Position numbers and translations under genes: made by a program
The notes under the pieces: generated by a model
What the model was told of the DNA's origin: nothing
Seen by the model: the letters and a program-made list of their open reading frames with translations, nothing else
Database searches by the model: none
Virus record (IMG/VR): IMGVR_UViG_3300042923_000668
Location: 1 to 46,448 of that record
Length of the DNA: 46,448 bases
From: a virus
Strand: one strand, 5' to 3'
Part shown: piece by piece, positions 27,172-44,000 of the stretch
Layout of the letters: each line of letters starts with the position of its first letter
How positions within the stretch are numbered: position 1 is the stretch's first letter

Positions 27172-27232
27172 GGTTCGGCCCCCGCAAGCTGGGTGATTCG
27201 GTCGAATCGAAGCAAATTCAAAATCAAAGGAG
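27172..27232 (+). repeat. Cassette element A (upstream form)
   Basis: Contains CGGCC (27176), core ATTCGGTCG (27196-27204) in a GATTCG/CGAATC hairpin, and the tail CAAATTCAAAATCAAAGGAG that is the ribosome site of the next gene. It lacks the GC hairpin present in C and D, as if deleted. Inverted partner is element E. Confidence 0.75.
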
Positions 27233-27240
27233 AATTCAAA

Positions 27241-27450
27241 ATGATTAGAGTAAGAGGAACGGCAAGGATTCGGGCTGACTTCGAAGTGGAATTAGACATG
27301 ACGGAAGAAGAGTTCGATGCACTACCCAGTCACGAACAAGACGATATTTTGGACAGTGCGATTGATTGGCATAACGTACTTGATAGTTCAGAAACTGACG
27401 ATTTTGAAATCGATGATGTTGAAGAAGTTGAGGACGAACAATCTGCATAA
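27241..27450 (+). CDS. Small acidic protein flanked by inverted elements A and E
   Basis: 69 residues from ATG 27241 after AAAGGAGAATTC. It begins MIRVRGTARIRADFEVELDM and then becomes strongly acidic (DDFEIDDVEEVEDEQ). Similar short proteins with a TEEEFDAL helix are found in other Bacillales phages. It is the only gene between an upstream-type and a downstream-type repeat. Function unknown; the acidity could suggest DNA mimicry, which is speculation. Confidence 0.65.
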   Translation: MIRVRGTARIRADFEVELDMTEEEFDALPSHEQDDILDSAIDWHNVLDSSETDDFEIDDVEEVEDEQSA

Positions 27451-27497
27451 GGCCGAACGGCCAACGTTTCGACCGAATAAGCCCAAGCCGAAGGAGG
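27451..27497 (-). repeat. Cassette element E (downstream form)
   Basis: Begins the base after a stop codon with hairpin GGCCGAACGGCC, core CGACCGAAT (27470-27478, exact reverse complement of the core in A), then AAGCCG and the AAGGAGG ribosome site of the next gene. Confidence 0.75.
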
Positions 27498-27502
27498 CAC
27501 CC

Positions 27503-27706
27503 ATGCAAATACAAGTGGAAAACAACACTGTAAACGACCGTCTGCACGCTTCAAGAAACTATACCCCAGCATTGTATTTTCCGGATCGAGAATGCGAATG
27601 CGGCGACCGCGCAAAGTATCGCATCAACCGCAAATATTACCGCTGCACCAATTGCGCGGATGATGAAAATGTGGACGTTGATGACGAGGGGGTGGAAGTC
27701 CTATGA
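27503..27706 (+). CDS. Small zinc-ribbon protein
   Basis: 67 residues from ATG 27503 (AAGGAGG at 27491-27497); the frame is open upstream through the previous gene, but that part has no site. Cysteine pairs CECGDRAKYR and YRCTNCADDE make one zinc ribbon, followed by an acidic tail. Stop overlaps the next start. One of many such small metal-binding proteins in this operon. Confidence 0.62.
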   Translation: MQIQVENNTVNDRLHASRNYTPALYFPDRECECGDRAKYRINRKYYRCTNCADDENVDVDDEGVEVL

Positions 27707-27897
27707 ATCCTATGAACGTGCCAACAAAAGAGGAAATGGCTGCACTGGAACGGGCATTGAGCAAGATGCAAGCGTATGTGGAGGCACAAGAACGAGTGGT
27801 TGAATGCCAACACAAGGCCCTCGCTGCTATGAAGAATTTAACTCGATTTTACGAGGAAGTGCTGTGTCCAGTAGAAAGTGAGGTGAAAACAGCCTAA
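27703..27897 (+). CDS. Small helical protein, unknown
   Basis: 64 residues, start overlapping the previous stop (ATGA). Mostly one or two amphipathic helices (MAALERALSKMQAYVEAQER). Stop overlaps the next start as TAATG. Not recognised. Confidence 0.55.
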   Translation: MNPMNVPTKEEMAALERALSKMQAYVEAQERVVECQHKALAAMKNLTRFYEEVLCPVESEVKTA

Positions 27898-28058
27898 TGG
27901 ACATCGACTCGCTCTATCTCAAACTGCGGTTTTCTCAACGACAGATGATTCGATCAGCCGGGACCGCGGCGCACAGCACGTGGAAGATGATCGTGCGTGA
28001 ATTGGACGCAAAAATAAGAGCGCTCACCGTGTGCGAAACGGTAAGCGCCAGTGCTTAA
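27897..28058 (+). CDS. Short basic helical protein
   Basis: 53 residues from an ATG overlapping the previous stop. The sequence SLYLKLRFSQRQMIRSAGTA suggests a small DNA-binding-like helix pair. GAGGTG lies 11 bases upstream. Its 3' end includes an 11-pair hairpin (GCGCTCACCGT with ACGGTAAGCGC, 28020-28048) with no T-run. Could be a small regulator; low certainty. Confidence 0.45.
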   Translation: MDIDSLYLKLRFSQRQMIRSAGTAAHSTWKMIVRELDAKIRALTVCETVSASA

Positions 28059-28114
28059 AGCCCTGTCCAAAGGTCTTACCTGTCATTATACCAGATTATA
28101 CGGAGGTTTAATAT

Positions 28115-28597
28115 ATGCGGTTATTCGATATCGCTGATCAATATAACGGGCTGTTTGAAATGCTCGAGCAAGACGCAAGCAACGAGGAATTGCAACAAAT
28201 GCTGGCAGGGATGCAAGGCAAACTCGAAGACAAGATCGACGCTGTTTTGAGTATCAGAGCTGGCAAAGTGGCCGAAGCGAAGGCACTTGTTGAGGAGTCT
28301 AAACGGCTTTCGGCGCGTGCAGCGCAATACACCAATGAAGCAGAACGCCTTGATCAACTCGTTGAACACGCACTGAGCGTGACCGGCTTGGAGAAGGTAA
28401 AAACGCTCAAGTTTACAGCATGGATGCAGATGTCGAACCCGAGTGTAATCGTACTTGATGAATCGGCGATCCCAAAGGAATTTTACGTTTCGAAGGAACC
28501 GGAGATTCGCAAGAGCATGATATTGGAGTCTTGGAAGAATGGACAAGTCGTCCCGGGCGTGGAGATACGGCAATCGAAATCGTTGAGGGTGAGGTGA
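28115..28597 (+). CDS. Gp157-family protein
   Basis: 160 residues with CGGAGG before ATG 28115. It matches the siphovirus Gp157 pattern: acidic N-terminal helix (LFEMLEQDASNEELQQML), a coiled coil around residues 40-90, and the beta strand region ending SNPSVIVLDESAIPKEFYV. These proteins lie next to single-strand annealing recombinases. Their role in phage recombination or host range is not established. Overlaps nothing but is coupled to the ERF gene. Confidence 0.82.
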   Translation: MRLFDIADQYNGLFEMLEQDASNEELQQMLAGMQGKLEDKIDAVLSIRAGKVAEAKALVEESKRLSARAAQYTNEAERLDQLVEHALSVTGLEKVKTLKFTAWMQMSNPSVIVLDESAIPKEFYVSKEPEIRKSMILESWKNGQVVPGVEIRQSKSLRVR

Positions 28598-28602
28598 TCG
28601 AA

Positions 28603-29295
28603 ATGTGCAACAAAAGCGAGTCCATCCAAAAGCTGGCCGTTGCGCTCGTGAAGTTCAACAGCGAAGTGAAGATCATCGAAAAGGACGCTTCGAATCCTCA
28701 CTTCAAGAACCGGTATGCTTCCTTGGATACGATCATTGACGAGGTGCGGCCCCTGTTGGCGAAGCACGGTTTGTCTGTCCTGCAATTCCCGGGTGGTGAC
28801 GGTGAAAAATTCACCTTGCGGTCTATGCTGGTTCATGAATCTGGTGAGTGGATCGAGTCCGAACCACTAACAATGCGACCTGTAAAGAACGATCCGCAGG
28901 GAATCGGGAGCTGCAACACATACGCACGTCGGTATAGTCTATCGTCGTTGCTTTCGCTCAATACGGGTGAGGATGACGATGGAAACGATGCTACCCACGG
29001 TAACGTTCAACAACCGTCTTCAAACGCTCATACAGGGCAGCAGACGCAACGGAATACCGAAACAAGGACAAGCCAACCGGCAGCTTCTAGCGGTCAATCT
29101 GGAGGTACTGTACACGCTTCTAGTAGAGTGTTTGCGATATCGAAAGAACTTGGTTGGAAGTCGAATGACTTGAACGCATTTGCAACAGATGTGTTGGGTC
29201 GCGAAGTCAAATACCCTATGAAAGATTACGTCAAGACAACGGAAGATTGGGAGAAGATCGAACAAGCATTGATTGTCACCAAGGCGGCATCATGA
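28603..29295 (+). CDS. erf: ERF-family single-strand annealing recombinase
   Basis: 230 residues from ATG 28603 with GAGGTG six bases before; upstream open frame lies within the Gp157 gene. The ERF core is clear: FKNRYASLDTIIDEVRPLLA near 27-46, GLSVLQFPGGD, and GIGSCNTYARRYSLSSLLSL near 100-120. The C-terminus after about residue 135 is a Ser/Thr/Gln-rich linker and a small helical domain. It anneals complementary single strands in phage recombination and genome circularisation. Next to Gp157 and HNH genes. Confidence 0.9.
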   Translation: MCNKSESIQKLAVALVKFNSEVKIIEKDASNPHFKNRYASLDTIIDEVRPLLAKHGLSVLQFPGGDGEKFTLRSMLVHESGEWIESEPLTMRPVKNDPQGIGSCNTYARRYSLSSLLSLNTGEDDDGNDATHGNVQQPSSNAHTGQQTQRNTETRTSQPAASSGQSGGTVHASSRVFAISKELGWKSNDLNAFATDVLGREVKYPMKDYVKTTEDWEKIEQALIVTKAAS

Positions 29296-29627
29296 ACAAC
29301 TTAGCCAATCAACCAGTACGGAGGTATAGCAAGGACGATCAATGTAAAAGTAACCGTGTAAAGCTCACAAACAGCCAGAAAACGGAGTTATCGGCTAAAG
29401 AGGTAAAGAGACTAAGGGAGCGATCGAACGGCGTATGCGAGCGCTGCGACCGTCAGAGAGCCGCAGAAAAAGCTCATGTGGAACGAAGATGGCACAGTGT
29501 TAAGCGTCCGACAGCCGAAGACTTCGTTCACCTCTGTATTACTTGTCATCGCTGGTGTGATGGATCAAAGGTAGGCCGTGATTGGCTTATAGCATTTCAA
29601 GATAAGTTGTTGGGTATAACCCATTAA
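29292..29627 (+). CDS. HNH-like zinc protein, probable nuclease
   Basis: 111 residues from ATG 29292 overlapping the ERF stop. Motifs: CERCDRQRAAEKAHVERRWH near residues 53-72 and HLCITCHRWCDG near 84-96, an arrangement of CxxC, AHxxxR and CxxCHxxxH-like HNH proteins. Probably a metal-dependent DNA-cutting or structural enzyme. The final H of a canonical HNH is replaced by a Cys/Asp pair, so activity is uncertain. Confidence 0.68.
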   Translation: MNNLANQPVRRYSKDDQCKSNRVKLTNSQKTELSAKEVKRLRERSNGVCERCDRQRAAEKAHVERRWHSVKRPTAEDFVHLCITCHRWCDGSKVGRDWLIAFQDKLLGITH

Positions 29628-29633
29628 TACAAA

Positions 29634-29716
29634 GAGGCCGGTATACGGCTACCGGCTTCGCCTAAGCGGATTCGGTCGGAACGATGGCGCTACGCGCAAA
29701 ATCAAATTCAAAGGAG
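29634..29716 (+). repeat. Cassette element B (upstream form)
   Basis: GAGGCCGG at 29634, CCTAAGCG, core ATTCGGTCG (29670-29678), hairpin GCGC-TAC-GCGC (29687-29697) and tail CAAAATCAAATTCAAAGGAG ending in the ribosome site of the 29727 gene. Hairpin bases differ from C and D but pairing is kept. Inverted partner F. Confidence 0.72.
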
Positions 29717-29726
29717 AAAACCATAA

Positions 29727-30383
29727 ATGTACCATGACGACGAATTTTTCTATGAACCATCTGAATTTGACCAACAGGTTAATGAATTTAAGTTGGCACT
29801 TATGAATTCCGTGAAAGACGAGTTCAAGACGGAAATGGAACGGCTGCGAAATGAAAATGAGGAACTTCAACGGGTTAAACGGGATTGGGAAAGCATTCAA
29901 AAGGAATATGCCAATAAACATCGGCAATTGGAATACGATAAAAGCCAATTGGAACGAACTGTGCGGTGGGCAAAGTTAGGCGAGTTGATGAAAGAACTTA
30001 ACGTCACATTGTACAAAGCTGTTGTTTCTTATACCGAAAAACCGAAATGCAGCAAGTGTAATGAAAAGAGACAGATTGAGTTTACAAGCCCTTCCGGAAA
30101 GTTGATGGGTGAAAATTGTGAATGCGCTACAAAAAATAAAAATTATGTGCCAGAAGGAAACATCATGTCTGAAATGAGGAGTCGAGATGGCAAAATAACC
30201 GCTTGGTATAAAAATTATAGAGACAGCGATGAAGGACTGACACTCAGTACGAGTACAGTTGTGAGTAAAATCTATGATCAAGGAATGCCATTTGAAAGCA
30301 TCGAGAGATACGGCATGTTTTTCCGAGATAAAGAGGATTGTCAAAAATACTGTGATTGGTTGAACGAGAACAACCCTGCGTAA
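29727..30383 (+). CDS. Coiled-coil zinc protein flanked by elements B and F
   Basis: 218 residues with AAAGGAG in element B. Residues about 10-85 form a long coiled coil (EMERLRNENEELQRVKRDWE). Cysteines at about 109-135 (PKCSKCNEKRQ and GENCECATK) make a zinc site, followed by a mixed region ending FRDKEDCQKYCDWLNENNPA. I do not recognise a family. Only gene in the cassette. Confidence 0.65.
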   Translation: MYHDDEFFYEPSEFDQQVNEFKLALMNSVKDEFKTEMERLRNENEELQRVKRDWESIQKEYANKHRQLEYDKSQLERTVRWAKLGELMKELNVTLYKAVVSYTEKPKCSKCNEKRQIEFTSPSGKLMGENCECATKNKNYVPEGNIMSEMRSRDGKITAWYKNYRDSDEGLTLSTSTVVSKIYDQGMPFESIERYGMFFRDKEDCQKYCDWLNENNPA

Positions 30384-30389
30384 ATCATT

Positions 30390-30440
30390 GGCCGAATGGC
30401 CTTCGCTTCGCTGGGTATTGCTGTCGAGCGAAGGCCGATC
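30390..30440 (-). repeat. Cassette element F (downstream form, divergent core)
   Basis: Six bases after the stop: GGCCGAATGGCC, then a perfect 10-pair stem GGCCTTCGCT (30398-30407) with AGCGAAGGCC (30427-30436), then GATCC. The CGACCGAAT core is not preserved, but the hairpin and the GGCC brackets are. Confidence 0.6.
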
Positions 30441-30470
30441 CAATCCCTTAAATCAATAATATACAGCTTA

Positions 30471-30514
30471 CCGCTATCGCTAAGTATTTCGGTAGATGGC
30501 GGCTAATGCAAGGA
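30471..30514 (+). repeat. Cassette element G (upstream form, divergent)
   Basis: CCGCTATC (30471-30478) pairs with GATGGCGG with one wobble, enclosing GCTAAGTATTTCGGTA, whose ATTTCGGTA is a degenerate core. It ends in the ribosome site AAGGAGTG of the 30525 gene. It shares CTAAGTATTTC with the reverse complement of element K. Confidence 0.58.
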
Positions 30515-30524
30515 GTGAAAGAAT

Positions 30525-30881
30525 ATGAGTAAACCGGTGGTTAAGAAACTTTACCGAATCATAACCCAAACAGAGGGAATGACCATAACGGCAGAAACTT
30601 CTCACGACATGACGGAAAGTGAGGCTAGAAATGCGGCAGAAAAAGATGTGCTTTCCCCAAATGGCAAGTACAAACCCTATGTTCTTGTGCCGATATGCAC
30701 AGAGTTTCAATGGAAATATGGTCAAATCAACTTCTGCCCTCGTTGCGGTCATAACATTTCGGAGTATGTTGGCGGCGATAACCTTGAAGGCGTGACAGAG
30801 AGCCTTGAATTTGAATGCCCTCAATGTGAGGCGGAAGTATATGTGAATATTTCTAATACGCCTGAGCAATTTGAAGAATGA
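30525..30881 (+). CDS. Zinc-ribbon protein flanked by elements G and H
   Basis: 118 residues, AAGGAGTG before ATG 30525. N-terminal beta region (KLYRIITQTEGMTITAETS), then CPRCGHNISEYV near residue 71 and ECPQCEAEVYVN near 97, one treble of two CxxC pairs. Single gene between inverted elements. Not recognised. Confidence 0.62.
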   Translation: MSKPVVKKLYRIITQTEGMTITAETSHDMTESEARNAAEKDVLSPNGKYKPYVLVPICTEFQWKYGQINFCPRCGHNISEYVGGDNLEGVTESLEFECPQCEAEVYVNISNTPEQFEE

Positions 30882-30889
30882 AGCTCATT

Positions 30890-30945
30890 GGCCGAACGGC
30901 CTCCAATCCGACTGAATCGCTTAGGGCGATAGCCCGGAGGCCGTC
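30890..30945 (-). repeat. Cassette element H (downstream form)
   Basis: Eight bases after the stop: GGCCGAACGGCC, GGCCTCC (30898-30904) pairing with GGAGGCC (30936-30942), inner hairpin GGGC-GATA-GCCC, and core CGACTGAAT (30909-30917, one change from consensus). Confidence 0.7.
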
Positions 30946-30977
30946 AAAGCAAGTTAAAAGAAAGGAAGTAATCCAAT

Positions 30978-31355
30978 ATGAGAAACATAAGAGCATGGGA
31001 CGATATAGCCAAGAAAATGAGTTACGGAAAGATCGAGCAATTTGACGATATGCTCGGATACCGGTTTGACCATTTCGAGACGGAAAAGCCGGTGTACATG
31101 TGGAGCATTGGAATAAAGGATATGAACGGTAAGGATATATTCATAGACGATATTTTCCCTTCTACGCCTAGGACAAGGGACGAGGTAACAATCATATGCT
31201 ACGACTCTCGTCAGGGGCGGTACAAGGCTGTTCCACTCGGACTGTATAAACGTAATGCGGGTAATGGCGGATGGACTGGATACGATGTAAACCCATATAG
31301 CGAAGTGATCGGGAATGTTCATGAACATCCTCATCTACTGGAGGAATCAAAATGA
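30978..31355 (+). CDS. YopX-family protein 1
   Basis: 125 residues with AAAGGAAGTAATC before ATG 30978. It follows the YopX plan: IRAWDDIAKKMSYGKI at the start, IGIKDMNGKDIFIDDIF near residues 43-59 and VIGNVHEHPHLL at the end. YopX is a common small phage protein of unknown biochemical role. Overlaps the next YopX gene by ATGA. Confidence 0.78.
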   Translation: MRNIRAWDDIAKKMSYGKIEQFDDMLGYRFDHFETEKPVYMWSIGIKDMNGKDIFIDDIFPSTPRTRDEVTIICYDSRQGRYKAVPLGLYKRNAGNGGWTGYDVNPYSEVIGNVHEHPHLLEESK

Positions 31356-31774
31356 GTCGTGAGATTAAATACCGAGCATGGTTAATAGCTGAAAGTCGAA
31401 TGATTGACCCAGTAGCAGCAATTGACTTATTACACCCACATCCCTCAATCAGCTGGTACGAAGATGTGCACGACGCCATAAGTGGCGTTACGACCGATGC
31501 TCCTCTTGATCGCGTAGTGCTTATACCCTACATCGGGTTAAACGACGAAAACGGCAACGAAGTTTATGCCGGAACGATACTCGGACGCGAATCTCCTCTT
31601 ACCGGAGTAACCTACTATTACAAAGTGGTATGGGACGACGAGAACGCGCGGTATATGTCTGAATCAATCACCGGCACGTTACGCGAATTGGTTAGCGCGA
31701 GCATCGAACGATGCTGCACGGTGTACGGGAATGTATGGCAGCATCCTCATCTATTAGGAGGGAACCAAGAGTGA
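31352..31774 (+). CDS. YopX-family protein 2
   Basis: 140 residues, start overlapping the previous stop. Same plan: IKYRAWLIAESRMIDP, LIPYIGLNDENGNEVYAGTI and VYGNVWQHPHLL. It is clearly divergent from YopX 1, so this is an old tandem pair rather than a recent copy. Role unknown. Confidence 0.78.
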   Translation: MSREIKYRAWLIAESRMIDPVAAIDLLHPHPSISWYEDVHDAISGVTTDAPLDRVVLIPYIGLNDENGNEVYAGTILGRESPLTGVTYYYKVVWDDENARYMSESITGTLRELVSASIERCCTVYGNVWQHPHLLGGNQE

Positions 31775-32214
31775 GCGATGATCCTAAAGTAATGGTCGAG
31801 TATTATAAGCAGAAAAAGCTAGATGAACTAATGTCGATGCAGCCGGGACTAGAACTGGATGACTTGGCCGAGGAAATCATTTTCGGGCGAACTATTAAAG
31901 AATTTGACAGCATCTACACGAATCGGTGGCGATTTAAACGCCGCGATGACGAGAAGTTTGCGAATCACTGGCATCCTTCACAACCATACTCCACAGCGCG
32001 GGAATGCGTATGGCTTGTAATCGATGAAATGCAACGACGGGGATGGGATTACCGAATCGAAACGGTCGGCAGCGTTAAGGAAGTAGCCTTTTTCAAACGT
32101 ATCGCCGGTTGGTACGAGGAAATGCAGGGCGAAGATTTATGCCTAATCTGCACTTTGGCAGCTATTAAGGCTCTACAAGGGAGTGAAACCACGAATGAAT
32201 CCAATCATCGTTAA
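31771..32214 (+). CDS. Phage ABA-sandwich-like protein
   Basis: 147 residues from GTG 31771, set by GGAGGG eight bases upstream. Pattern: LDDLAEEIIFG near the N-terminus, QPYSTARECVWLVIDEMQRR near 75, and ICTLAAIKALQG at the end, as in the small phage ABA sandwich family. Function of the family unknown. It overlaps both neighbours, so translation is coupled. Confidence 0.68.
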   Translation: MSDDPKVMVEYYKQKKLDELMSMQPGLELDDLAEEIIFGRTIKEFDSIYTNRWRFKRRDDEKFANHWHPSQPYSTARECVWLVIDEMQRRGWDYRIETVGSVKEVAFFKRIAGWYEEMQGEDLCLICTLAAIKALQGSETTNESNHR

Positions 32215-32383
32215 TAAAAATGCTGCAATATTTGACGGAATGTTAGTCGGTGTGATTGGTAGGGTAGTCGGAGCAGATTCGGAACTGAAAGAAGTAACAC
32301 TGGAGATCGAGAAAGGAACCTACGTTACGGTGTCCAGAGATCGGGTGTATCAAGGGGAGGATACCCATGGAACCAGTAAATAG
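32195..32383 (+). CDS. Small beta-rich protein, unknown
   Basis: 62 residues from ATG 32195 after AAGGGAGTG, overlapping the end of the previous gene by 20 bases. Mostly beta strands (FDGMLVGVIGRVVGADS, VTLEIEKGTYVTVSRDRV), like a small SH3 or Sm-like barrel. Not recognised. Confidence 0.52.
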   Translation: MNPIIVNKNAAIFDGMLVGVIGRVVGADSELKEVTLEIEKGTYVTVSRDRVYQGEDTHGTSK

Positions 32384-32714
32384 CCGGAAGCTTTATACCC
32401 TCGTTTCAGAAGATGACGTTTACCGTAAACTTGTTCACTTGAAACTAAGTTTATATCAGATGGTTGGCGGTGCTATCAATATCAAGAATCTTGCGTATCT
32501 GCTCCATACTAGTGAATATCAGGTGCGGAAGCACATGCGGAGTCTACGCGACAAGGGCATAGTCGAACTGAAATGCTTCAATATTCCTGATGATGAAGAA
32601 ATTTACCCTCCGTATTGGGGATACGTGCTGACGGAAAAAGGGTGCACAACGGAATATTACCTGAAAGCTGACGAAGAACATAACCGGATAATCGTTGAAT
32701 GCTTTGGAACCTAA
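32367..32714 (+). CDS. Winged-helix-like DNA-binding protein
   Basis: 115 residues, GGGGAGGATACCC before ATG 32367. A recognisable winged helix at about 30-85: INIKNLAYLLHTSEYQVRKH followed by MRSLRDKGIVELK and a C-terminal beta wing. It may be a regulator within the early operon or an autoregulator. The partner site is not visible. Confidence 0.62.
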   Translation: MEPVNSRKLYTLVSEDDVYRKLVHLKLSLYQMVGGAINIKNLAYLLHTSEYQVRKHMRSLRDKGIVELKCFNIPDDEEIYPPYWGYVLTEKGCTTEYYLKADEEHNRIIVECFGT

Positions 32715-32731
32715 ATGGGAAGGTGAAATAG

Positions 32732-33094
32732 ATGGAACCAGTAAATGAACCATTCGGAAATACCGAAAAGTTGGAACCAGTAAGTAATGCTGATCTTGTA
32801 TTGATGCAAGCAATAATAGCTAATCAAAAGACCACTATCCGTGAACAATCAGATAGAAATCGGAGACTGAGAGAAGAACTAATTTACGAAAAGTCACGAA
32901 ACGAGACGTACTCCAACGGCGTGAAATTACTCGAACATCAACTCCAATCCATACAGCAGGAAAGGGATAAGCTTGTTAAAGGGCTGCAAGTCATGGCTAA
33001 TTCCGATGACAAGTGGTATGTAGTGATAACTCCAATGCAAGAGTATGCGGCTCGGCTGCTTGAGGATATCGGAGTAGGGGAGGAAAGGACATGA
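32732..33094 (+). CDS. Coiled-coil protein, unknown
   Basis: 120 residues after AAGGTGAAATAG. It starts with the same four residues MEPV as the gene before, then has a long coiled coil (IREQSDRNRRLREELIYEKS through residue 85). Overlaps the next start by ATGA. Function unknown. Confidence 0.6.
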   Translation: MEPVNEPFGNTEKLEPVSNADLVLMQAIIANQKTTIREQSDRNRRLREELIYEKSRNETYSNGVKLLEHQLQSIQQERDKLVKGLQVMANSDDKWYVVITPMQEYAARLLEDIGVGEERT

Positions 33095-33318
33095 CCTTAT
33101 GCGAACCCCATGGGCGCTTACGGTGCGGTGAATGTGCGTATGTAGAGGAGTTACAGGAGAGAATCCAATCCCTCCAACAACAGGTAAACACGCTGACAGA
33201 AGCGCTGGAACGCATTGTTGCTCTTGCAGTAAATGGACGGCATGAGACATATGAATCTGAAATCGCCATAGCAGCCCTACAGTCTATAAAGGAATCCCCG
33301 AGGGAGGAGCGGACATGA
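33091..33318 (+). CDS. Small coiled-coil protein with N-terminal cysteine knuckle
   Basis: 75 residues. CEPHGRLRCGEC near residues 4-15 could bind zinc, and the rest is a coiled coil (EELQERIQSLQQQVNTLTEA). Coupled to both neighbours by ATGA overlaps. Similar short proteins are common in Gram-positive phage early operons. Role unknown. Confidence 0.58.
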   Translation: MTLCEPHGRLRCGECAYVEELQERIQSLQQQVNTLTEALERIVALAVNGRHETYESEIAIAALQSIKESPREERT

Positions 33319-33500
33319 GCGGTACAACGGCAAAGTTTACGTATAAGCAGCTACAGACGTTAAAACATGCGTTGATCGTATATCAAAATCGTGATGATGC
33401 AACAATCAGCGATACGTTGAGTGAAGAAGTTCTACTGGGTAAATTGGAGGACATCATCGAACGGATGGAATACCAAAATGGTATAGGGAGGAGCAAGTGA
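33315..33500 (+). CDS. Small helical protein, unknown
   Basis: 61 residues, GGGAGGAG before ATG 33315. Two helices (TYKQLQTLKHALIVYQNRDD and EEVLLGKLEDIIERMEYQ). Not recognised. Ends one base before the next ATG. Confidence 0.55.
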   Translation: MSGTTAKFTYKQLQTLKHALIVYQNRDDATISDTLSEEVLLGKLEDIIERMEYQNGIGRSK

Positions 33501-33501
33501 A

Positions 33502-33786: not shown

Positions 33787-33808
33787 GGGATAAGGGAGAA
33801 GAGGATAT

Positions 33809-34006
33809 ATGGGTAAAAAGAAGCTTTTCAGCGAAGAGACGGTAAGAGTGGACGACTGCCAATGTGTATATTGCGGGCATATCTTCCACGGTCGAAACGC
33901 TTGCAATGCAAACATGGATTGCAGGTCCGTAACCTGCCCCAAGTGCAATAAAGATATGAATGTGTTCATTTCGGTGGAATATACTTGCACGCCGCTTGAG
34001 GAATGA
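33809..34006 (+). CDS. Small zinc-ribbon protein
   Basis: 65 residues, AAGGGAGAAGAGG before ATG 33809. Cysteines CQCVYCGHIF near residue 17 and CRSVTCPKCNKD near 38 form a ribbon, with CTP near the end. Not recognised beyond metal binding. Confidence 0.6.
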   Translation: MGKKKLFSEETVRVDDCQCVYCGHIFHGRNACNANMDCRSVTCPKCNKDMNVFISVEYTCTPLEE

Positions 34007-34025: not shown

Positions 34026-34650
<625 letters not shown>

Positions 34651-34653
34651 TAA

Positions 34654-34702
34654 GGCCGAACGGCCATCGAGTTGACCGAAACACACAGCGCCAGCGGTGG
34701 CC
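34654..34702 (-). repeat. Cassette element I (downstream form)
   Basis: Three bases after the exonuclease stop: GGCCGAACGGCC, GGCCATCG (34662-34669) pairing with CGGTGGCC (34695-34702) with one wobble, and degenerate core TGACCGAAA (34673-34681). Confidence 0.7.
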
Positions 34703-35631: not shown

Positions 35632-35700
35632 CGGCCCCCGTTTCACTGGGTGATTCGGTCGATACGGAGGCGGCGATGCCGCAAAATCAAAACAAAGGAG
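35632..35700 (+). repeat. Cassette element D (upstream form)
   Basis: CGGCCCCCG (35632), core ATTCGGTCG (35653-35661) followed by ATACGGAG, hairpin GCGGC-GAT-GCCGC (35670-35682), tail CAAAATCAAAACAAAGGAG. It lies two bases after a stop codon and ends in the next ribosome site. No inverted partner is found after the next gene. Confidence 0.72.
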
Positions 35701-38077: not shown

Positions 38078-38111
38078 TTGCCCTGTACCCCAAATAACCA
38101 GGAGGGCGACT

Positions 38112-38351
38112 ATGGCACGAACAGAGCGCAAGAAAGAAATGTTGGAAACAGCAGAAAGTTTCCGTTGGCTGCTCAAAGATAAATTAGTATCGATGGACAA
38201 CGTAACTCGGGCGATGATCAGCGAAATGAGAACGCTTTGCGTAAGCACGGAATTGATTGCGGAATACTTGCCCGAGTATTTTCAAGAGTTGGCAAATGAA
38301 GTGGTCAGGGAACAAACGGAAAAGTACGACAAGAAGGGACGACCAGCATGA
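38112..38351 (+). CDS. Small helical protein, unknown
   Basis: 79 residues from ATG 38112, CAGGAGGG upstream. All helical (SFRWLLKDKLVSMDNVTRAM, LPEYFQELANEVV). Follows the initiator; could be a helicase-loader accessory, but no motif shows it. Overlaps the next start by ATGA. Confidence 0.55.
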   Translation: MARTERKKEMLETAESFRWLLKDKLVSMDNVTRAMISEMRTLCVSTELIAEYLPEYFQELANEVVREQTEKYDKKGRPA

Positions 38352-38578
38352 GTAATCAGTATTGGGAGGAAATGAGCAAAGGCCAGCCACTTCTGGGGAT
38401 GAAGGAACGGTGTCACGATTGTGCGATCAGTACCGGATTTTATACGGAGATCGCTGACGAGTTACTGAAACAGCCGCTGGAAATACAACAAAAATGTGTT
38501 CAAGCGTGGTATTGTCATAATTTCGCCAATCGTGCTTGCAAGGGCGCGGAAGAATATATTTTGCAAGGAATCTGTTAA
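38348..38578 (+). CDS. Small cysteine/histidine-rich protein
   Basis: 76 residues. CHDCA near residue 22 and CVQAWYCHNFANRACKG near 50-66 suggest a zinc site or an Fe-S-like cluster. Not recognised. Confidence 0.58.
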   Translation: MSNQYWEEMSKGQPLLGMKERCHDCAISTGFYTEIADELLKQPLEIQQKCVQAWYCHNFANRACKGAEEYILQGIC

Positions 38579-38597
38579 TAGAGAGGAGCTTAACCAA

Positions 38598-38870
38598 ATG
38601 AAACGGATCGCACTGGAAGTCGAAGAAGTACTGACATATCGTAGGAAGATTTATGTAAACGTGCCGGATGAAATGGAAGATTCAGAGATCGAGCGCATTC
38701 TTACAAAAGCTGAGAAAGAAGAATACTTGTCTGAATTCATGTATATTCTCGACGCAAATCTCATGGAGACTACAGACGGATACGACGATGACCTGAGTTC
38801 GCCTTGGTCATCAGAGGTAGAATGCACTGAATATTACCAAGTCGATGAAAAGGGCGAAGAAATTGCATAG
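38598..38870 (+). CDS. Acidic phage protein followed by element J
   Basis: 90 residues from ATG 38598, GAGAGGAGC upstream; the longer open frame would begin inside the previous gene. ALEVEEVLTYRRKIYVNVPD at the start, acidic end (DDDLSSPWSSEVECTEYY). The stop TAG gives its last G to element J. Not recognised. Confidence 0.58.
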   Translation: MKRIALEVEEVLTYRRKIYVNVPDEMEDSEIERILTKAEKEEYLSEFMYILDANLMETTDGYDDDLSSPWSSEVECTEYYQVDEKGEEIA

Positions 38871-38918
38871 GCCGAAGGCCATCGTATCGACCGAATAAGC
38901 GCGAGCCGATAAAGGGAG
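38870..38918 (-). repeat. Cassette element J (downstream form)
   Basis: GGCCGAAGGCC starts on the last base of the stop codon, then ATCGTAT and core CGACCGAAT (38888-38896), GCGAGCCGAT and the AAAGGGAGG ribosome site of the next gene. No upstream-form partner before the 38598 gene. Confidence 0.75.
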
Positions 38919-38927
38919 GAATAAACC

Positions 38928-39110
38928 ATGCTATGGGCAGTATTTCAGAGAAACTACCGCATAAGCAAGAAGCCGCTGACTGAGTACGAGGCAAGAAATG
39001 AAATGGCGAGCTGGGGCGGTATGCTATCAAATCTGGAAGTAAGAGAGATCGAGCAGCCGACCAAACCGGCGAAGAAACGAAAACCGCGTAGAAGGATGTG
39101 TTCAGGATGA
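38928..39110 (+). CDS. Small basic protein, unknown
   Basis: 60 residues, AAAGGGAGGAATAAACC before ATG 38928. N-terminal strand region (MLWAVFQRNYRISKKPLTEY) and very basic C-terminus (KPAKKRKPRRRMCSG). Could bind nucleic acid. Overlaps the next small ORF by ATGA. Confidence 0.52.
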   Translation: MLWAVFQRNYRISKKPLTEYEARNEMASWGGMLSNLEVREIEQPTKPAKKRKPRRRMCSG

Positions 39111-39235
39111 ACCCAATATCGCATCAACAAATCAAGGAGCAGATGAAAAACCTCGAGGCGGTGAATGCAAAGTATGCGTTTGACAATACCAGGTACATTG
39201 CCGGGGACAAACGAGATCCTAAACGCGAGCAATAA
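39107..39235 (+). CDS. Short ORF overlapping rusA
   Basis: 42 residues (HQQIKEQMKNLEAVNAKYAF) starting on an ATGA overlap. It shares 71 bases with the rusA gene in another frame. It may exist mainly to couple translation of rusA. Low certainty. Confidence 0.3.
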   Translation: MNPISHQQIKEQMKNLEAVNAKYAFDNTRYIAGDKRDPKREQ

Positions 39236-39536
39236 CAATCGGCACATCTACAACGAGCTTAAACGAAATTATACGAATCTGGTCGCCTTGTGTGCGAAGC
39301 AAGCAAAATTACCGGAGCTGCCGCCGGCCGATTACACGATAACATGGTACTGCCCAAACAAGCGGAAGGACAAGGACAACGTCATGGGCGGTCAAAAATT
39401 TATATTTGATGGGCTGGTTGAGTCCGGCAAACTACGGAATGATGGCTGGAACGATATCGGAGACATATCGCATCGGTTCCGGGTGGACAAGGAGAATCCA
39501 CGAGTGGAAATCGAGATCAAGGAAGTGAGCGCATGA
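39165..39536 (+). CDS. rusA: RusA-family Holliday junction resolvase
   Basis: 123 residues; ATG 39165 or 39174 (the second gives the usual MRLTIPGTLPG start). Catalytic aspartates fit the RusA pattern: RKDKDNVMG with Asp69 and Asp71, FDGLVESGKLRNDGW with Asp82 and Asp93. As a dimer it cuts four-way junctions, resolving branched DNA made by ERF recombination and replication before packaging. Overlaps the small ORF before it. Confidence 0.88.
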   Translation: MQSMRLTIPGTLPGTNEILNASNNNRHIYNELKRNYTNLVALCAKQAKLPELPPADYTITWYCPNKRKDKDNVMGGQKFIFDGLVESGKLRNDGWNDIGDISHRFRVDKENPRVEIEIKEVSA

Positions 39537-39679
39537 AATGGATGGATGCAATAGCCCTCATGGGAATCATCGCGTGCACCGTATCACTCAAAAGTTCGTC
39601 AAGATACAACACATGGTGGATGAAAGTGGTATTCGCAATAATACTGATGTTTCTTTTTTTCTCGATCTTGTTTGAGTGA
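39533..39679 (+). CDS. Small membrane protein (two spans)
   Basis: 48 residues starting on an ATGA overlap with rusA. Hydrophobic stretches DAIALMGIIACTVSL and VVFAIILMFLFFSILF with a polar middle. Unknown; small membrane proteins in early operons are sometimes superinfection-exclusion or defence modulators. Confidence 0.5.
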   Translation: MKWMDAIALMGIIACTVSLKSSSRYNTWWMKVVFAIILMFLFFSILFE

Positions 39680-39693
39680 AGGAGGTCAGTTGA

Positions 39694-39804
39694 ATGTACT
39701 GGGTTGGCATAATATTTTTCTCAACCGTAATCACACTTGAACTGGTTGCAATGTTCTGTTTGATATCCAGGATCATCAGGTCAGCCAAAGGAGGATCAAG
39801 GTGA
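39694..39804 (+). CDS. Membrane microprotein (one span)
   Basis: 36 residues, GAAGGAGGTC before ATG 39694. One span (VGIIFFSTVITLELVAMF) and a basic tail RIIRSAKGGSR. Its last bases overlap the GTG of the next gene. Probably inner membrane; function unknown. Confidence 0.48.
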   Translation: MYWVGIIFFSTVITLELVAMFCLISRIIRSAKGGSR

Positions 39805-39989
39805 AACCCATAGCAACCATACATTGGACAGTTGACGGGGAAGAGTGCTCACGAGAATATTACGAACGATATTTGCTAGAACAAAAGATTGAACATTTGA
39901 AAAAGCAAGACAGAATGTTCTACGTTTGCATTAACAGCACACTCAACCCGTTGCCTAGCAATACCCCAGTAATCCCCATATCAAGATAG
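39801..39989 (+). CDS. Small protein, unknown
   Basis: 62 residues from GTG 39801 (GGAGGATCAAG upstream, GTGA overlap with the previous stop). Sequence IATIHWTVDGEECSREYYER, then LLEQKIEHLKKQD. Not recognised. The following 86 bases hold no gene I trust; a CCGGGGTAACCCCC motif lies at 40034. Confidence 0.52.
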   Translation: MKPIATIHWTVDGEECSREYYERYLLEQKIEHLKKQDRMFYVCINSTLNPLPSNTPVIPISR

Positions 39990-40075
39990 CGGCATACCAA
40001 TTGCACCTGACGTTACGGAAAAGTCGATTTATACCGGGGTAACCCCCATGAAAAACTATAAAGTGAGGGCTAAAA

Positions 40076-40354
40076 ATGGCATACACAAGGGACGAAATGG
40101 AGACTACCTGCAACTACGATCACGTAACGAAGTTATGGACCGTTTACACATGTGTTCCGACGCACATCACGAAGCTGCTGAAAATAGCTGATCCATACTG
40201 GAAAGAGGAGGGCGACGGAAAGCACGGACCGCGCATAATTGCTGGAAAGTGGCATCTGAAGAAAAGCCAAGTGCGATTCGCAAAACTGTTTGAAGCTAAG
40301 TCGGACAATGACGAAACGGAAAATGATGACGAAGAAGTAGAAGAATCGGCGTAA
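40076..40354 (+). CDS. Small acidic-tailed protein
   Basis: 92 residues, GTGAGGG before ATG 40076. The core (YDHVTKLWTVYTCVPTHITK, then RIIAGKWHLKKSQVRFAKLF) may be a small alpha/beta fold, and the last 20 residues are nearly all acidic. Not recognised. Confidence 0.55.
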   Translation: MAYTRDEMETTCNYDHVTKLWTVYTCVPTHITKLLKIADPYWKEEGDGKHGPRIIAGKWHLKKSQVRFAKLFEAKSDNDETENDDEEVEESA

Positions 40355-40382
40355 TCCATACTCCATCAAAGGGGGTGAACCC

Positions 40383-40514
40383 ATGCTAAGGAGATTCATC
40401 CGAAGGTTACTCCGCAGGAGGCAGCAATCGCGGAATCGATCCGAATACAAACCGCGAATTAGAGTGCCGGAGACGCAGGCTAGAATCACATGGCCGCGTG
40501 ATAAAAAGTATTGA
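40383..40514 (+). CDS. Arginine-rich microprotein
   Basis: 43 residues (MLRRFIRRLLRRRQQSRNRS at the start), AAAGGGGGTGAACCC before ATG 40383. Very basic, amphipathic at the N-terminus. Could bind nucleic acids or membranes. Confidence 0.42.
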   Translation: MLRRFIRRLLRRRQQSRNRSEYKPRIRVPETQARITWPRDKKY

Positions 40515-40530
40515 AAATCGTCGTAATCCC

Positions 40531-40580
40531 TTGATACATAAGGGTTTATGGTATCAATCGAACGAAATTTGTGATACAAT
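40531..40580 (+). promoter_or_regulatory. Promoter with TTGATAC dyad before the coiled-coil gene
   Basis: TTGATAC (40531-40537) and GTATCAA (40551-40557) form a perfect 7-bp dyad. TGATACAAT (40572-40580) is an extended -10 identical to that at 36181. The dyad lies where the -35 region would be. Confidence 0.52.
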
Positions 40581-40614
40581 ATTATCATGGATAAACCTTA
40601 GGAGGGTACGGTAT

Positions 40615-41664
40615 ATGAACTTGCAAGAGAGCTTGGAACAAAAGGTAGCACGGCTAAAATTGAAACTAGCGCAAATCGAGGAAAATTTCACCGGCACGAC
40701 GGAAGAAACGAACAACCGGAACTGGGTAAGTAATCAGCTATCGGAAGCTGAAGACGAGTTGCAGAAGCAACGTGCCATGGAAGTGCGGGAGCAGAAGACA
40801 GAGGAAATGCTCGATGAGTACAATGACACGCTGAACCGGATTTTCAATGTGATCATGCCGGAAGACGTATTTTCTCAGGTTCTTGGAGTGAACGAGTACA
40901 GCGAAAAGCGAAGCGACTTCAAAAAAATCATGCGAGCATACTACTCCGAAAAGTTGGCAGCGCTCAACGCCGATCATGCCGCCGAGATCGATGCATGGCG
41001 CAAGAAGTTCGGGCGATTGACAATGCAGGCACAGCAGACTGAAAATCAGTTGGCAGAACAAAAGAGTAACAGTGAGAAGAAAGAAAGTGAATGGGCGGAA
41101 AGTGAAGAAAAATACGAAGCAGAAATTCGCGAAAAGGAATTGTTGCTCAACCAGACGCAAACGCTGCTTAACTTGGCGAACGATCGTTTTGCTGAACTTG
41201 AAGCGAAACTCGAACAGGCGACGAAGCCAAAGGAAGCCGCACCGAGTGAAGCACTCGACAAGGTGCTGGAAGAAGTACAATCCCGGAAGAAACTGAACAC
41301 CGACGAAATCATGAAGCGATTCGAGGCGCGTCAAACCAATGGCGGCAAAGTGATGGCAATTGACCACAGTAAAATCGTGTTACCGGAGTTGCCCTTTCGC
41401 ACGAATCCCGAAGTGGTTGCGCCTCCTGTGGGACAAAGTGCCGATATTCCGACAATCGTAACGCCGGAACAGTTTCGCGGAAGCAACGCAAACGTGGATC
41501 AACAGGCAGCGCATACCGAGGACGGAAACGGAGCGCAGGGAGACAATGGAAGCAGCCCGGACGATGCGCCGGTTTCTCGAGCAGAACTCGAAGCGCGGTT
41601 CAAGCGGATCGAAAGCCAACTTGGGTTGAAGTTGTGGCAGTATGAAGCGGAGGTTGTGGCGTAA
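40615..41664 (+). CDS. Long coiled-coil protein
   Basis: 349 residues from ATG 40615 with TTAGGAGGG; the frame is open upstream across the promoter. Residues about 1-60 and 130-235 are coiled coils rich in Glu, Gln and Lys. After about 270 comes a Pro/Gly/Asp-rich linker and a short C-terminal helix (RAELEARFKRIESQLGLKLW). Its own promoter starts a sub-operon with the Tad2-like gene. Function unknown. Confidence 0.65.
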   Translation: MNLQESLEQKVARLKLKLAQIEENFTGTTEETNNRNWVSNQLSEAEDELQKQRAMEVREQKTEEMLDEYNDTLNRIFNVIMPEDVFSQVLGVNEYSEKRSDFKKIMRAYYSEKLAALNADHAAEIDAWRKKFGRLTMQAQQTENQLAEQKSNSEKKESEWAESEEKYEAEIREKELLLNQTQTLLNLANDRFAELEAKLEQATKPKEAAPSEALDKVLEEVQSRKKLNTDEIMKRFEARQTNGGKVMAIDHSKIVLPELPFRTNPEVVAPPVGQSADIPTIVTPEQFRGSNANVDQQAAHTEDGNGAQGDNGSSPDDAPVSRAELEARFKRIESQLGLKLWQYEAEVVA

Positions 41665-42125
41665 TGAATTTCGGACAAGCGATTGAGGCGTTGAAGTTGG
41701 GGAGCAAAGTTGCGCGTGAAGGATGGAACGGGAAAGGGATGTTTATTTACTTGGTGAGGGGATCGTTGGTAAATGAACTCCGAGGGGAAGCAGCAACCCA
41801 TGTTGGACAGCCAAAAGAAGGAGATGCCCAGGTCATCAACTCACACATCGAAATGAAAGCCGCTGATGGTTCCATCGTTGTCGGATGGTTTGCCTCTCAA
41901 ACGGACATTCTGGCAGAGGATTGGGTAATCGTACTCGACGGTGGAAAAAACGAAACGGACGAAAGATGGAAAAGTGCCATTGAAAATGCACGGTTCATGC
42001 TGGAAGAGTACAAAAAGATTCCGAATGGCATATTTGGTGCAATGAATATTGCCAATATTATTGCGAGATATGATAGTGGCGAACGAACGAAAGAACTGCT
42101 AGAAGAACTCGAAGGAATTGAATAG
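41664..42125 (+). CDS. tad2: Tad2-like (DUF2829) anti-Thoeris protein
   Basis: 153 residues, start overlapping the previous stop as TAATG. The DUF2829 signature is plain: MNFGQAIEALKLGSKVAREG, WNGKGMFIYLV, then VGWFASQTDILAEDW near residues 75-89. Tad2 proteins bind and sequester the cyclic-ADP-ribose-type signal made by Thoeris defence. The family core is about 95 residues; a C-terminal extension of about 55 residues here (RWKSAIENARFMLEEYKKIP) is extra. An accessory gene, with cassette element K starting on the last base of its stop. Confidence 0.8.
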   Translation: MNFGQAIEALKLGSKVAREGWNGKGMFIYLVRGSLVNELRGEAATHVGQPKEGDAQVINSHIEMKAADGSIVVGWFASQTDILAEDWVIVLDGGKNETDERWKSAIENARFMLEEYKKIPNGIFGAMNIANIIARYDSGERTKELLEELEGIE

Positions 42126-42198
42126 GCCGAAGGCCATCGCTCGACAGAAATACTTAGGGGCGGAGTCCCGGAGGCCGACAAGGGGCTTTGGGGACTCC
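42125..42198 (-). repeat. Cassette element K (downstream form)
   Basis: GGCC-GAA-GGCC starts on the last base of the Tad2 stop. Degenerate core CGACAGAAA (42142-42150), CTTAGGGG, and GGAGTCCC (42162-42169) that can pair with GGGACTCC (42191-42198) just before the next ribosome site, in competition with GGAGGCC (42170-42176). Confidence 0.68.
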
Positions 42199-42213
42199 AT
42201 AGAGGTGAATACA

Positions 42214-42363
42214 ATGGGATGGATGGGAGACCCTCTCGGGGATTACTTGAAATTCAGGGGAATGACTCCATTAGGAATATTGTTATATCCAATACTTGCT
42301 CCAACTTTGCTGGTTATCGCTTTAGTAATAACCGTGAAAAGCTGGTTCGAACCCAATAAGTAG
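42214..42363 (+). CDS. Small membrane protein
   Basis: 49 residues, AGAGGTG before ATG 42214. One long hydrophobic segment (LGILLYPILAPTLLVIALVI). Unknown. Directly after element K and before three genes sharing the TAGGTGAAC ribosome cassette. Confidence 0.5.
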   Translation: MGWMGDPLGDYLKFRGMTPLGILLYPILAPTLLVIALVITVKSWFEPNK

Positions 42364-42372
42364 GTGAACCAC

Positions 42373-42543
42373 ATGCCTAAAACAATACTCAAACATGAAA
42401 CTCAAGTCATCGAAACCAAAAACGGGGAATTGATGGTAGAGTTCTGGACCAAAGAAGTCAAGCGACCAAACCAATACGGTAAATATGAAATTGACATGGA
42501 ACGATTGGAACGGATGATGCACCAATCATGGATGAGTAGGTGA
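42373..42543 (+). CDS. Small protein, unknown
   Basis: 56 residues, TAGGTGAACC before ATG 42373. Contains ELMVEFWTKEVKRPNQYGKY, probably alpha/beta. Not recognised. Confidence 0.5.
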   Translation: MPKTILKHETQVIETKNGELMVEFWTKEVKRPNQYGKYEIDMERLERMMHQSWMSR

Positions 42544-42547
42544 ACAT

Positions 42548-42787
42548 ATGGGTAAATTCGATAAACTATGGGATCGATATGGAGTAGGTGAACGTATGGA
42601 AAAAGAATATGTACCCCATGTGATCGAAGAAGGCAGTAGAGAACATGTGATCAGCTATATCGGGGGATCATTTGGTTCATTCGAAAAATGCAATATAGAA
42701 AATTGTGAGATAAACAAGCGTTGGGATGAGCATAGAAAAGATGTATTGGAACGGCTTACACTAATGGCATTTTCTGAAAGTGAGTAG
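42548..42787 (+). CDS. Small protein with two possible starts
   Basis: 79 residues from ATG 42548; a second in-frame ATG at 42596 has an equally good TAGGTGAAC ribosome cassette right before it, so two forms (79 and 63 residues) are possible. Middle part: HVIEEGSREHVISYIGGSFG, then CNIENC. Not recognised. Confidence 0.5.
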   Translation: MGKFDKLWDRYGVGERMEKEYVPHVIEEGSREHVISYIGGSFGSFEKCNIENCEINKRWDEHRKDVLERLTLMAFSESE

Positions 42788-42795
42788 GTGAACAG

Positions 42796-43050
42796 TTGAA
42801 ACTAAAAACACTGATACTCATACTCGTTTTGGTGTTAACTGGATGCAACCAATCGAGCTATGCAGAAGAAAAATATGTTTTACAGAAAATTGGAATTGCT
42901 GGGGATGAGAGAAGTTTAAACGTTGATGTAATAGTGGTTAGGGATAAAGACACTGGATGCGAATATTTCTTAGGAACATTTTACGCAGGATTCATGAACC
43001 CACGTATGAATGCTGATGGAACACAAAAGTGTGAAGCACCCAAACAGTAA
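42796..43050 (+). CDS. Small lipoprotein
   Basis: 84 residues from TTG 42796 (TAGGTGAAC cassette). Lipoprotein signal TLILILVLVLTGC with the lipobox LTGC at about 12-15. The mature part has VDVIVVRDKDTGCEYFLGTF and ends with a cysteine near the C-terminus (possible disulphide). A surface lipoprotein encoded by a phage is a candidate superinfection-exclusion factor (known for other phages; inferred here). Confidence 0.65.
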   Translation: MKLKTLILILVLVLTGCNQSSYAEEKYVLQKIGIAGDERSLNVDVIVVRDKDTGCEYFLGTFYAGFMNPRMNADGTQKCEAPKQ

Positions 43051-43094
43051 TTCCGTCCGGCATGACGGCCAATACAATAGCGGAGGTGATACCG

Positions 43095-43529
43095 ATGACC
43101 AATGATCAAATCACGGAGCTGCTAAGAAACTTCCGCTCGTATGAATACGCAGCATTAAACTGCGGTCGATCTGACCTCGATCAGCTACCACTCGTCATAT
43201 CCGAGCGCAAACGGAACAAAGATGTGTGGGACCGTAGTCGATATAACCGCGTCGTAAAGATCGTAAGAGGCGCAATCGAACACGTGCTGAGCGATGACCA
43301 ACGGACGGTTATATCGAGGAAATACCTTGAACGGAACACGATGACACTGAACGAGATTTCAGACATACTCCATAAGGATCGCACTACGATTGGACGTTGG
43401 CATTCGGAAGCGATACGCAGACTCGCAATCGCCCTGGAGCCGCTAAATGAGGATGAACTGGAACTCACCCCATTCAACCACATGTTCGACCACAAAGGAC
43501 GGTTCCGCGAACCGCAGGAAACCGCATAA
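43095..43529 (+). CDS. ArpU-like late transcription regulator (sigma region 4-like HTH)
   Basis: 144 residues from ATG 43095, CGGAGGTG upstream. The C-terminal half has a sigma-4-type HTH: VISRKYLERNTMTLNEISDI followed by HKDRTTIGRWHSEAIRRLAI. Proteins of this type lie just before the terminase genes in Gram-positive phages and control late transcription. A hairpin CCGTC/GACGG (43052-43069) precedes it. Target site not known; the array at 18593 is a candidate. Confidence 0.75.
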   Translation: MTNDQITELLRNFRSYEYAALNCGRSDLDQLPLVISERKRNKDVWDRSRYNRVVKIVRGAIEHVLSDDQRTVISRKYLERNTMTLNEISDILHKDRTTIGRWHSEAIRRLAIALEPLNEDELELTPFNHMFDHKGRFREPQETA

Positions 43530-43633
43530 ATGCCGCATTTTTGCACACAAATGCAACAAGCTAAGTAGTAAAATGTAATCATGGGGAAGTTGATCAGGGA
43601 GCTCCCGGCGTACCCACTAGAGAGTCATATCGC

Positions 43634-43675
43634 AAGGTCGCGCGATCCGCAGCGGCCTTCCGGTTTTGGCTCTTT
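43634..43675 (+). terminator. Terminator-like hairpin after the late regulator
   Basis: AAGGTCGC (43634-43641) pairs with GCGGCCTT (43652-43659, one wobble) around a 10-base loop, with CCGGTTTTGGCTCTTTTT after it. The T-run is delayed, so efficiency is unsure. The rest of 43530-43698 holds no gene I can support. Confidence 0.42.
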
Positions 43676-43698
43676 TTGCTTCGATAGGGGTGATGATG

Positions 43699-43920
43699 AT
43701 GAGGGATGAAGAGGTATTCACAGCGTTGAATGAGCTGTACAATAACAGATTCAAACAAATTGTGTTTCGTGGTGCTTCAACAGACGAGGAAGAACATTAT
43801 CGTCATTTCTCCTTCGGTTGCGTGGAACAAAATAATGCGACAACGGGAGTTCATGTGTACCTTGATCTAAATACAAACAGCATCTTCCACATATACGAAA
43901 GTGCCGGGGAAGGAATATAA
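43699..43920 (+). CDS. Small protein, unknown
   Basis: 73 residues; three ATG codons in a row (43693, 43696, 43699), the last best spaced from AGGGGTG. Contains EVFTALNELYNNRFKQIVFR and HVYLDLNTNSIFHIYESAG. Followed by element L. Not recognised. Confidence 0.5.
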   Translation: MRDEEVFTALNELYNNRFKQIVFRGASTDEEEHYRHFSFGCVEQNNATTGVHVYLDLNTNSIFHIYESAGEGI

Positions 43921-43933
43921 AAGAAGTAGTCAA

Positions 43934-44000
43934 GGCCGAAGGGCAACGACATCGACCGAATAGGCTTAGGACGACAGTCCGGGGGCCGATGAAGGGGAGG
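43934..44000 (-). repeat. Cassette element L (downstream form)
   Basis: 13 bases after the stop: GGCCGAAGGGC, core CGACCGAAT (43953-43961), GGCTTAGGAC-GACA-GTCC hairpin, GGGGGCCGATG and the GGGGAGG ribosome site. No upstream-form partner before the 43699 gene. Confidence 0.75.

Follow-up and report, generated by a model that had tools for sequence, protein, structure and literature searches.

The 46,448-nucleotide virus record IMGVR_UViG_3300042923_000668 of IMG/VR, analyzed over its whole length and referred to here as the window, carries 12 copies of a DNA element of approximately 40 to 60 bp that sits at gene borders. Five copies, named U, lie in reverse orientation upstream of a ribosome site, and seven, named D, lie just past a stop codon; a U copy is a D copy inverted. 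We propose, with a probability of roughly 55%, that the elements are inverted boundary ("plug") sites at which single-gene cassettes are exchanged, with short-homology recombination as the most likely mechanism. In the window and its relatives we observed a family of such elements with a fixed orientation, brackets around one gene, homology breakpoints at the elements, and two gene replacements in which both flanks were kept.

A preliminary description of the window had claimed a family of at least 12 members, six of them with exact cores. Twelve copies were recovered, and the nine-mers were found where they had been placed, with ATTCGGTCG at 27196, 29670, and 35653 and CGACCGAAT at 27470, 38888, and 43953 (plus strand), all six inside 27.1 to 44.0 kb. 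When one mismatch was allowed, the nine-mer alone showed no excess (17 in the window versus 13.7 ± 4.0 expected from shuffled DNA), and therefore the case rests on the whole element. A profile was built from 93 aligned copies, of which the window contributed six. With this profile, nhmmer matched 10 window copies, every one between 27.1 and 44.0 kb, and two further copies (30389, degenerate, and 30909) were clear by eye. Applied to 1.08 Mb of phage and prophage DNA, the profile gave 257 matches at or above 12 bits, distributed over 146 loci, compared with none at that threshold in a second-order Markov shuffled control. The excess over shuffled sequence on which the preliminary description had staked its family is thus present for the whole-element profile, although not for the nine-mer alone. 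The D-orientation consensus of the 93 copies comprises an inner hairpin of the GGC-nnn-GCC type, (A/T)TCGANN-CGACCGAA-T, CCCAG, an optional short hairpin, and GGGGGCCG. Three parts of the element can be distinguished: an inner hairpin (GGCC-GAA-GGCC or GCGGCnnnGCCGCC), a core reading CGANN-CGACCGAA, and an outer segment that may contain a further hairpin and has GGCCG at its end. The core and the terminal GCCG are invariant in the alignment, partly because copies were selected by those bases.

Many other viral contigs carry the element, as judged by a degenerate-pattern search, and the model search gave matches in 49 of 50 records, with a maximum of 17 copies per phage. These relatives were mostly collected by means of the element itself, and their genes were called with a simple script. 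The open reading frame calls first put many copies inside genes, which on inspection was partly real (C-terminal coding) and partly the result of wrong starts. Carriers were seen only among phages and prophages of the Paenibacillaceae. Copies were present in 46 of 300 bacterial genomes of this family, to which Cohnella nanjingensis belongs, in 25 of 201 from its order, and in 4 of 400 at the class level, all 4 already counted among the family matches. A pattern scan of bacterial genome contigs was discarded, its 68 loci being nearly all chance matches in high-GC genomes; when two of these loci were checked with the model, that of C. nanjingensis was real and that of Paenibacillus flagellatus was not. 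The element was absent from the P. larvae phages Fern, Tripp, and API480, and a megablast search of INPHARED with the window and two relatives found no named phage match.

Orientation with respect to genes is strict in the window, as the preliminary description had maintained: all five U copies terminate in the following gene's ribosome site, and all seven D copies begin 0 to 14 bases past a stop codon. Nor was random orientation, which would have spoken against that claim, seen in the relatives, where a ribosome site and start codon lie inward of 40 of 49 antisense (U) copies compared with 22 of 139 sense (D) copies (P = 1e-16) and a coding stop falls between -80 and +60 in 132 of the 139 sense copies. 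Across 39 phage and prophage sequences, we counted 134 D and 60 U copies. Read in the transcribed direction, 48 intervals run from a U copy to a D copy; their median length is 473 bp, and 28 of them hold exactly one gene. The medians of D-U and D-D intervals are approximately 2 kb. This rule tracks transcription and not genome direction, and it holds in leftward operons. When U and D labels were shuffled within runs (38 sequences, one duplicate prophage being omitted), 10,000 permutations yielded 9.7 one-gene U-D brackets on average and never more than 18, against the 28 observed. A U copy nearly always has a D copy after it. The earlier picture of intergenic copies bracketing single genes therefore stands for the brackets but does not hold throughout, since D copies are often alone and in relatives often overlap the 3' coding end, so that they are not strictly intergenic. 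Similarly, the window copies all lie outside the structural and lysogeny genes, within 27.1 to 44.0 kb, but relatives also have copies beside lysogeny genes on the other strand (for example, G002, 7.2 to 8.6 kb). Long runs of large structural-type genes without copies are seen in the relatives' maps (for example, G023, 9.5 to 30.3 kb, and G014, 15.2 to 37.3 kb). The element belongs to accessory regions and not to the early region alone.

Sequence comparison indicates that the elements are joints of mosaicism. Element flanks were compared between non-redundant sequences, with gene stops lying no more than 4 kb from an element, but not at one, as the control. One-sided versus both-sided homology was found at 50 versus 5 element sites and at 350 versus 179 control gene stops (odds ratio, 5.1; P = 6e-5; the counts are not phylogenetically independent), and gene starts as the control gave the same outcome. 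An initial test with raw BLAST ends, which showed weak enrichment because BLAST alignments pass through the shared element, was replaced by these flank-coverage tests. In pairs that share the outer side, identity is 0.75 to 0.86 up to the core and at background level within the inner half. The most finely resolved break separates G021 from L343 (contig C4 of genome G154), which are 99.7% identical over 385 bp outside the element and unrelated inside, the break falling at the first core bases; the G021 copy is identical to that on contig C6 of G154.

The preliminary description had suggested asking whether bracketed genes differ between relatives while the elements stay, and two replacements of this kind could be identified. 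Between G012 and G037, the flanking genes on both sides are 91 to 95% identical and the bracketed genes, of 61 and 98 codons, are different; homology stops approximately 20 bp inside the U core and returns approximately 10 bp before the D core. In genome G407, contigs C3 and C66 are 91% identical over 80 bp at U and 97% identical at and after D, and the gene between differs, encoding a weakly Mom-like protein in one contig and an unrelated protein of 77 residues in the other. Near-identical loci were also noted within single host genomes. L338 and L339 (contigs C85 and C70 of G407) are 96% identical over 1.3 kb across U and D, the whole bracket being common, and probably represent a second related prophage in one host. 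Three places in genome G269 (L347 to L349) share approximately 750 bp of nearly identical sequence around one D copy, with different DNA beyond, and are possibly three related prophages that recombined.

According to the cassette-exchange model, a cassette would comprise one small accessory gene together with its own ribosome site and stop codon, flanked by one copy on each side as inverted repeats with the cores outward. Exchange would occur in or beside the core, with the inner halves moving with the gene and the outer halves staying with the phage backbone, and crossovers with another phage's pair would replace the gene while keeping its reading direction. Because the sites are inverted, recombination between them could at most invert the gene and could not delete it, whereas direct repeats would delete it. 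The outer half of D may provide an in-frame stop (CGACCGAA-TAA) for an incoming gene without one. The breakpoints suggest that recombination acts at the element itself. Short-homology recombination could be carried out by host RecA or by phage annealing proteins such as ERF or RecT, which many of these phages encode.

The same exchange might instead be carried out by a dedicated site-specific system, in which a phage or host recombinase acts on CGANNCGACCGAA and swaps cassettes at the inverted sites, in the way that XerC/XerD act on dif modules. The near-invariant 8-bp core with CG at -5/-4 amid variable flanks, the near-palindrome ATTCG-AC-CGAAT in many copies, the G021/L343 breakpoint within a few bases of the core, and the inverted one-gene brackets would all suit such a system, but some breakpoints lie up to approximately 22 bp inside the core, and no recombinase family is common to all carriers. 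A serine recombinase was found in 24 of the 32 records searched; because 8 of 32 carriers lack it, a serine integrase was rejected as the responsible enzyme, and no universal recombinase emerged when 3006 predicted proteins were clustered. We therefore regard a dedicated enzyme as possible, if unlikely. A phage-borne form of this idea, resembling recombinase-mediated cassette exchange, in which a dedicated recombinase on inverted CGANNCGACCGAA swaps single genes, for counter-defence and other accessory functions, among Paenibacillaceae phages, is doubtful. As no candidate is common to all carriers, we infer a short-homology mechanism and retain the dedicated enzyme as the main rival.

Several observations weigh against the proposal of boundary sites for cassette exchange by short homology. 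The core is near-invariant across diverged phages (approximately 91 to 100% per base, most positions above 95%), which exceeds what homology-driven exchange needs, and a Pfam-recognized annealing protein is not present in every phage with the element (ERF in 13 and RecT in 6 of 32). Many D copies have no U partner, and the clean two-sided replacements number only two. Some close pairs differ in the outer hairpin too, with the same DNA farther out, and therefore exchange is not always at the core.

The element appears to work as DNA. On the element strand, hairpin loops of the GNA or GNNA type outnumber those of the TNC or TNNC type by 64 to 1 in D copies and 10 to 0 in U copies, and the core reads alike in both. 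Loops and core thus keep the polarity of the element even though U and D are transcribed from opposite strands, which favors DNA as the level at which the element acts or, at the least, acted in the past. RNAalifold predicted no pair in the 93 copies, so that conserved pairing was not found, and the Rfam 15 covariance models gave no match at E ≤ 1 in 26.0 to 46.4 kb. With DNA energies, 9 of 10 window copies fold no better than shuffles and only 1 of 10 clearly better. Among the three functions offered in the preliminary description, cassette exchange is consistent with the breakpoints and the two replacements; RNA processing fits poorly with the lack of a consensus fold or Rfam family and with loops that follow the element strand.

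Its third option, the site of a regulator or other DNA-binding protein, would require an insulator, anti-silencing, translation, or mRNA-end function at both ends of accessory genes, with the joints as a by-product of shared sequence. The fixed place beside ribosome site and stop and the conservation of the core in both orientations are compatible with such a site, as is the preference for an in-frame stop right after the core in D (35% of D copies versus 15% of U copies), an excess that also fits a site taking any arriving gene end. Nevertheless, no sigma-70-like promoter was seen at the window copies, the region falling below the shuffled mean for this promoter type, and no excess of terminators was seen in the region; some D copies of relatives directly follow an intrinsic terminator, as judged by eye. 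The missing fold and Rfam match, together with a polarity that tracks the element and not the transcript, also count against regulation. So does the finding that homologues of the same gene carry the D copy in some phages and lack it in others, which speaks for exchange as well. We consider this explanation rather improbable.

The inverted terminal copies around one gene and the many different cargos could also be explained by non-autonomous transposable cassettes, with the copies as terminal inverted repeats and a transposase acting in trans. Many D copies are alone, however, and sequence divergence among the copies of a single genome is strong. Replaced genes sit in the same place, with their neighbors unchanged, and not at new sites, and an empty site with a target duplication was not found among the relatives compared. 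We consider such cassettes highly improbable.

For many D copies, the coding sequence of the preceding gene extends into the element, always in the same frame, and ends at TAA or TAG following CGACCGAA (position +11) or at one of the positions +17, +35, and +38. Proteins that are not related to each other consequently end in ...PKAxxSTE, ...ESTESA, or ...STEQPSEAAAE and share the tail -S/T-T-E-stop, because their last codons are the element. Small phage proteins with this tail were noted at L223 (17030 to 17215), at L340/L341, and at many other loci.

In the window, U copies are on the minus strand, and D copies and the genes named here are on the plus strand. U1 (27172 to 27228; core TTCGGTCG at 27197 to 27204; profile match) lies upstream of a gene for 69 residues with no family above the cut-off (27241 to 27450), and D1 (27452 to 27490; core CGACCGAA at 27470 to 27477; profile match) starts 1 base past its stop. 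The second bracketed gene (29727 to 30383; 218 residues; phrog_9300, unknown function) stands between U2 (29640 to 29702; core at 29671 to 29678; profile match) and D2 (30389 to 30441), a degenerate copy below the profile threshold that has kept the GGCCGAATGGCC hairpin and lost the core. U3 (30469 to 30510) is degenerate as well (TTCGGTAG; profile match of 9 bits) and, with D3 (30890 to 30943; core CGACTGAA), brackets a gene for a zinc-ribbon-like protein of 118 residues with a weak Lar-like match (30525 to 30881). An Rv2179c-like 3'-5' exoribonuclease of 172 residues (34132 to 34650) is enclosed by U4 (34064 to 34107; core GTTCGGTCG; profile match) and D4 (34653 to 34702; core TGACCGAA; profile match). 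The interval from U5 (35632 to 35685; core at 35654 to 35661; profile match) to D5 (38870 to 38908; core at 38888 to 38895; profile match) holds multiple genes, among them one for an HNH endonuclease (PF01844; 36390 to 37169). The gene before D5 (38598 to 38870; 90 residues) has a homologue in another phage (L173, G003) that likewise terminates in a D copy; past the core, the DNA differs. D6 (42125 to 42177; core CGACAGAA; profile match) is directly preceded by a gene for a protein like Tad2 (Thoeris anti-defence 2; 41664 to 42125; Pfam PF11195, E = 1e-25), and D7 (43934 to 43987; core at 43953 to 43960) is also a profile match. The genes bracketed by or preceding elements, taking window and relatives together, encode the Tad2-like protein, the Rv2179c-like exoribonuclease, cytosine methylases, a weakly Mom-like protein whose match is below the Pfam cut-off, and many unknowns; counter-defence is plausible as a common theme.

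Other local repeats were noted in the same part of the window. A near-identical leader, (GAG)TAGGTGAAC, precedes each of four consecutive small genes at 42361 to 42798 and includes both the preceding gene's stop and the following gene's ribosome site. Two adjacent genes at 32360 to 32790 start with an identical ATGGAACCAGTAAAT, followed by a third copy, GGAACCAGTAAGT, in a pattern resembling local duplication of a gene start. The adjacent genes at 30978 to 31774 have similar C-terminal ends (VHEHPHLLEE and VWQHPHLLGG) and are probably paralogues.

The preliminary description knew of no named system like this one, and no description of the element was found in the literature searched, subscription literature lying outside the search; the element lacks a defining feature of each known system compared. 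Integron cassettes usually comprise one gene with a hairpin-rich, variable attC site after the stop codon, and these sites are arranged as direct repeats and serve the tyrosine integrase IntI. The cassettes proposed here likewise hold one gene with a hairpin-bearing site after the stop, whereas their paired copies are inverted. In Acinetobacter, plasmid dif (pdif) modules consist of single genes or small groups between inversely oriented recombination sites and are shuffled as modules (PMC13141974, PMC6449649). The 28 U-D brackets resemble these in being one-gene units between inverted sites. The sites of dif modules are, however, XerC/XerD sites in plasmids, while the element is found in phages and has the core CGACCGAA with GC hairpins on both sides; its longest stretch in common with a Bacillus subtilis dif sequence is 4 bases. 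The element works like a dif module but is not one. The PeSLs of T4-like phages, according to PMC4503421 (citing Arbiol 2010 and Comeau 2014), are repeated intergenic stem-loop elements mediating the shuffling of small accessory genes and are composite promoter-terminator motifs. PeSLs share with the element the stem-loop and the link to accessory-gene shuffling but differ in that no sigma-70-like promoter or terminator was seen at our window copies and in that our copies form inverted brackets around one gene. The SAS/ESAS of cluster K mycobacteriophages are conserved short repeats of unknown function, some with inverted repeats, upstream of many gene starts and mostly in one orientation (PMC3203893). 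Start-side U copies resemble them; unlike SAS/ESAS, the element also follows stops in the opposite orientation (134 D versus 60 U), and mosaic joints fall on it.

The translated tail calls for caution in annotation and in homology searches. The brackets flag accessory genes worth assaying, namely those for the Tad2-like anti-Thoeris protein, the 3'-5' exonuclease, the cytosine methylases, and the weakly Mom-like protein. Mosaic phage genomes rarely show defined sites at the borders of single exchangeable genes. Here such sites number in the hundreds among phages of one host family, so that the old question of whether phage modules are exchanged through special linker sequences becomes directly testable.

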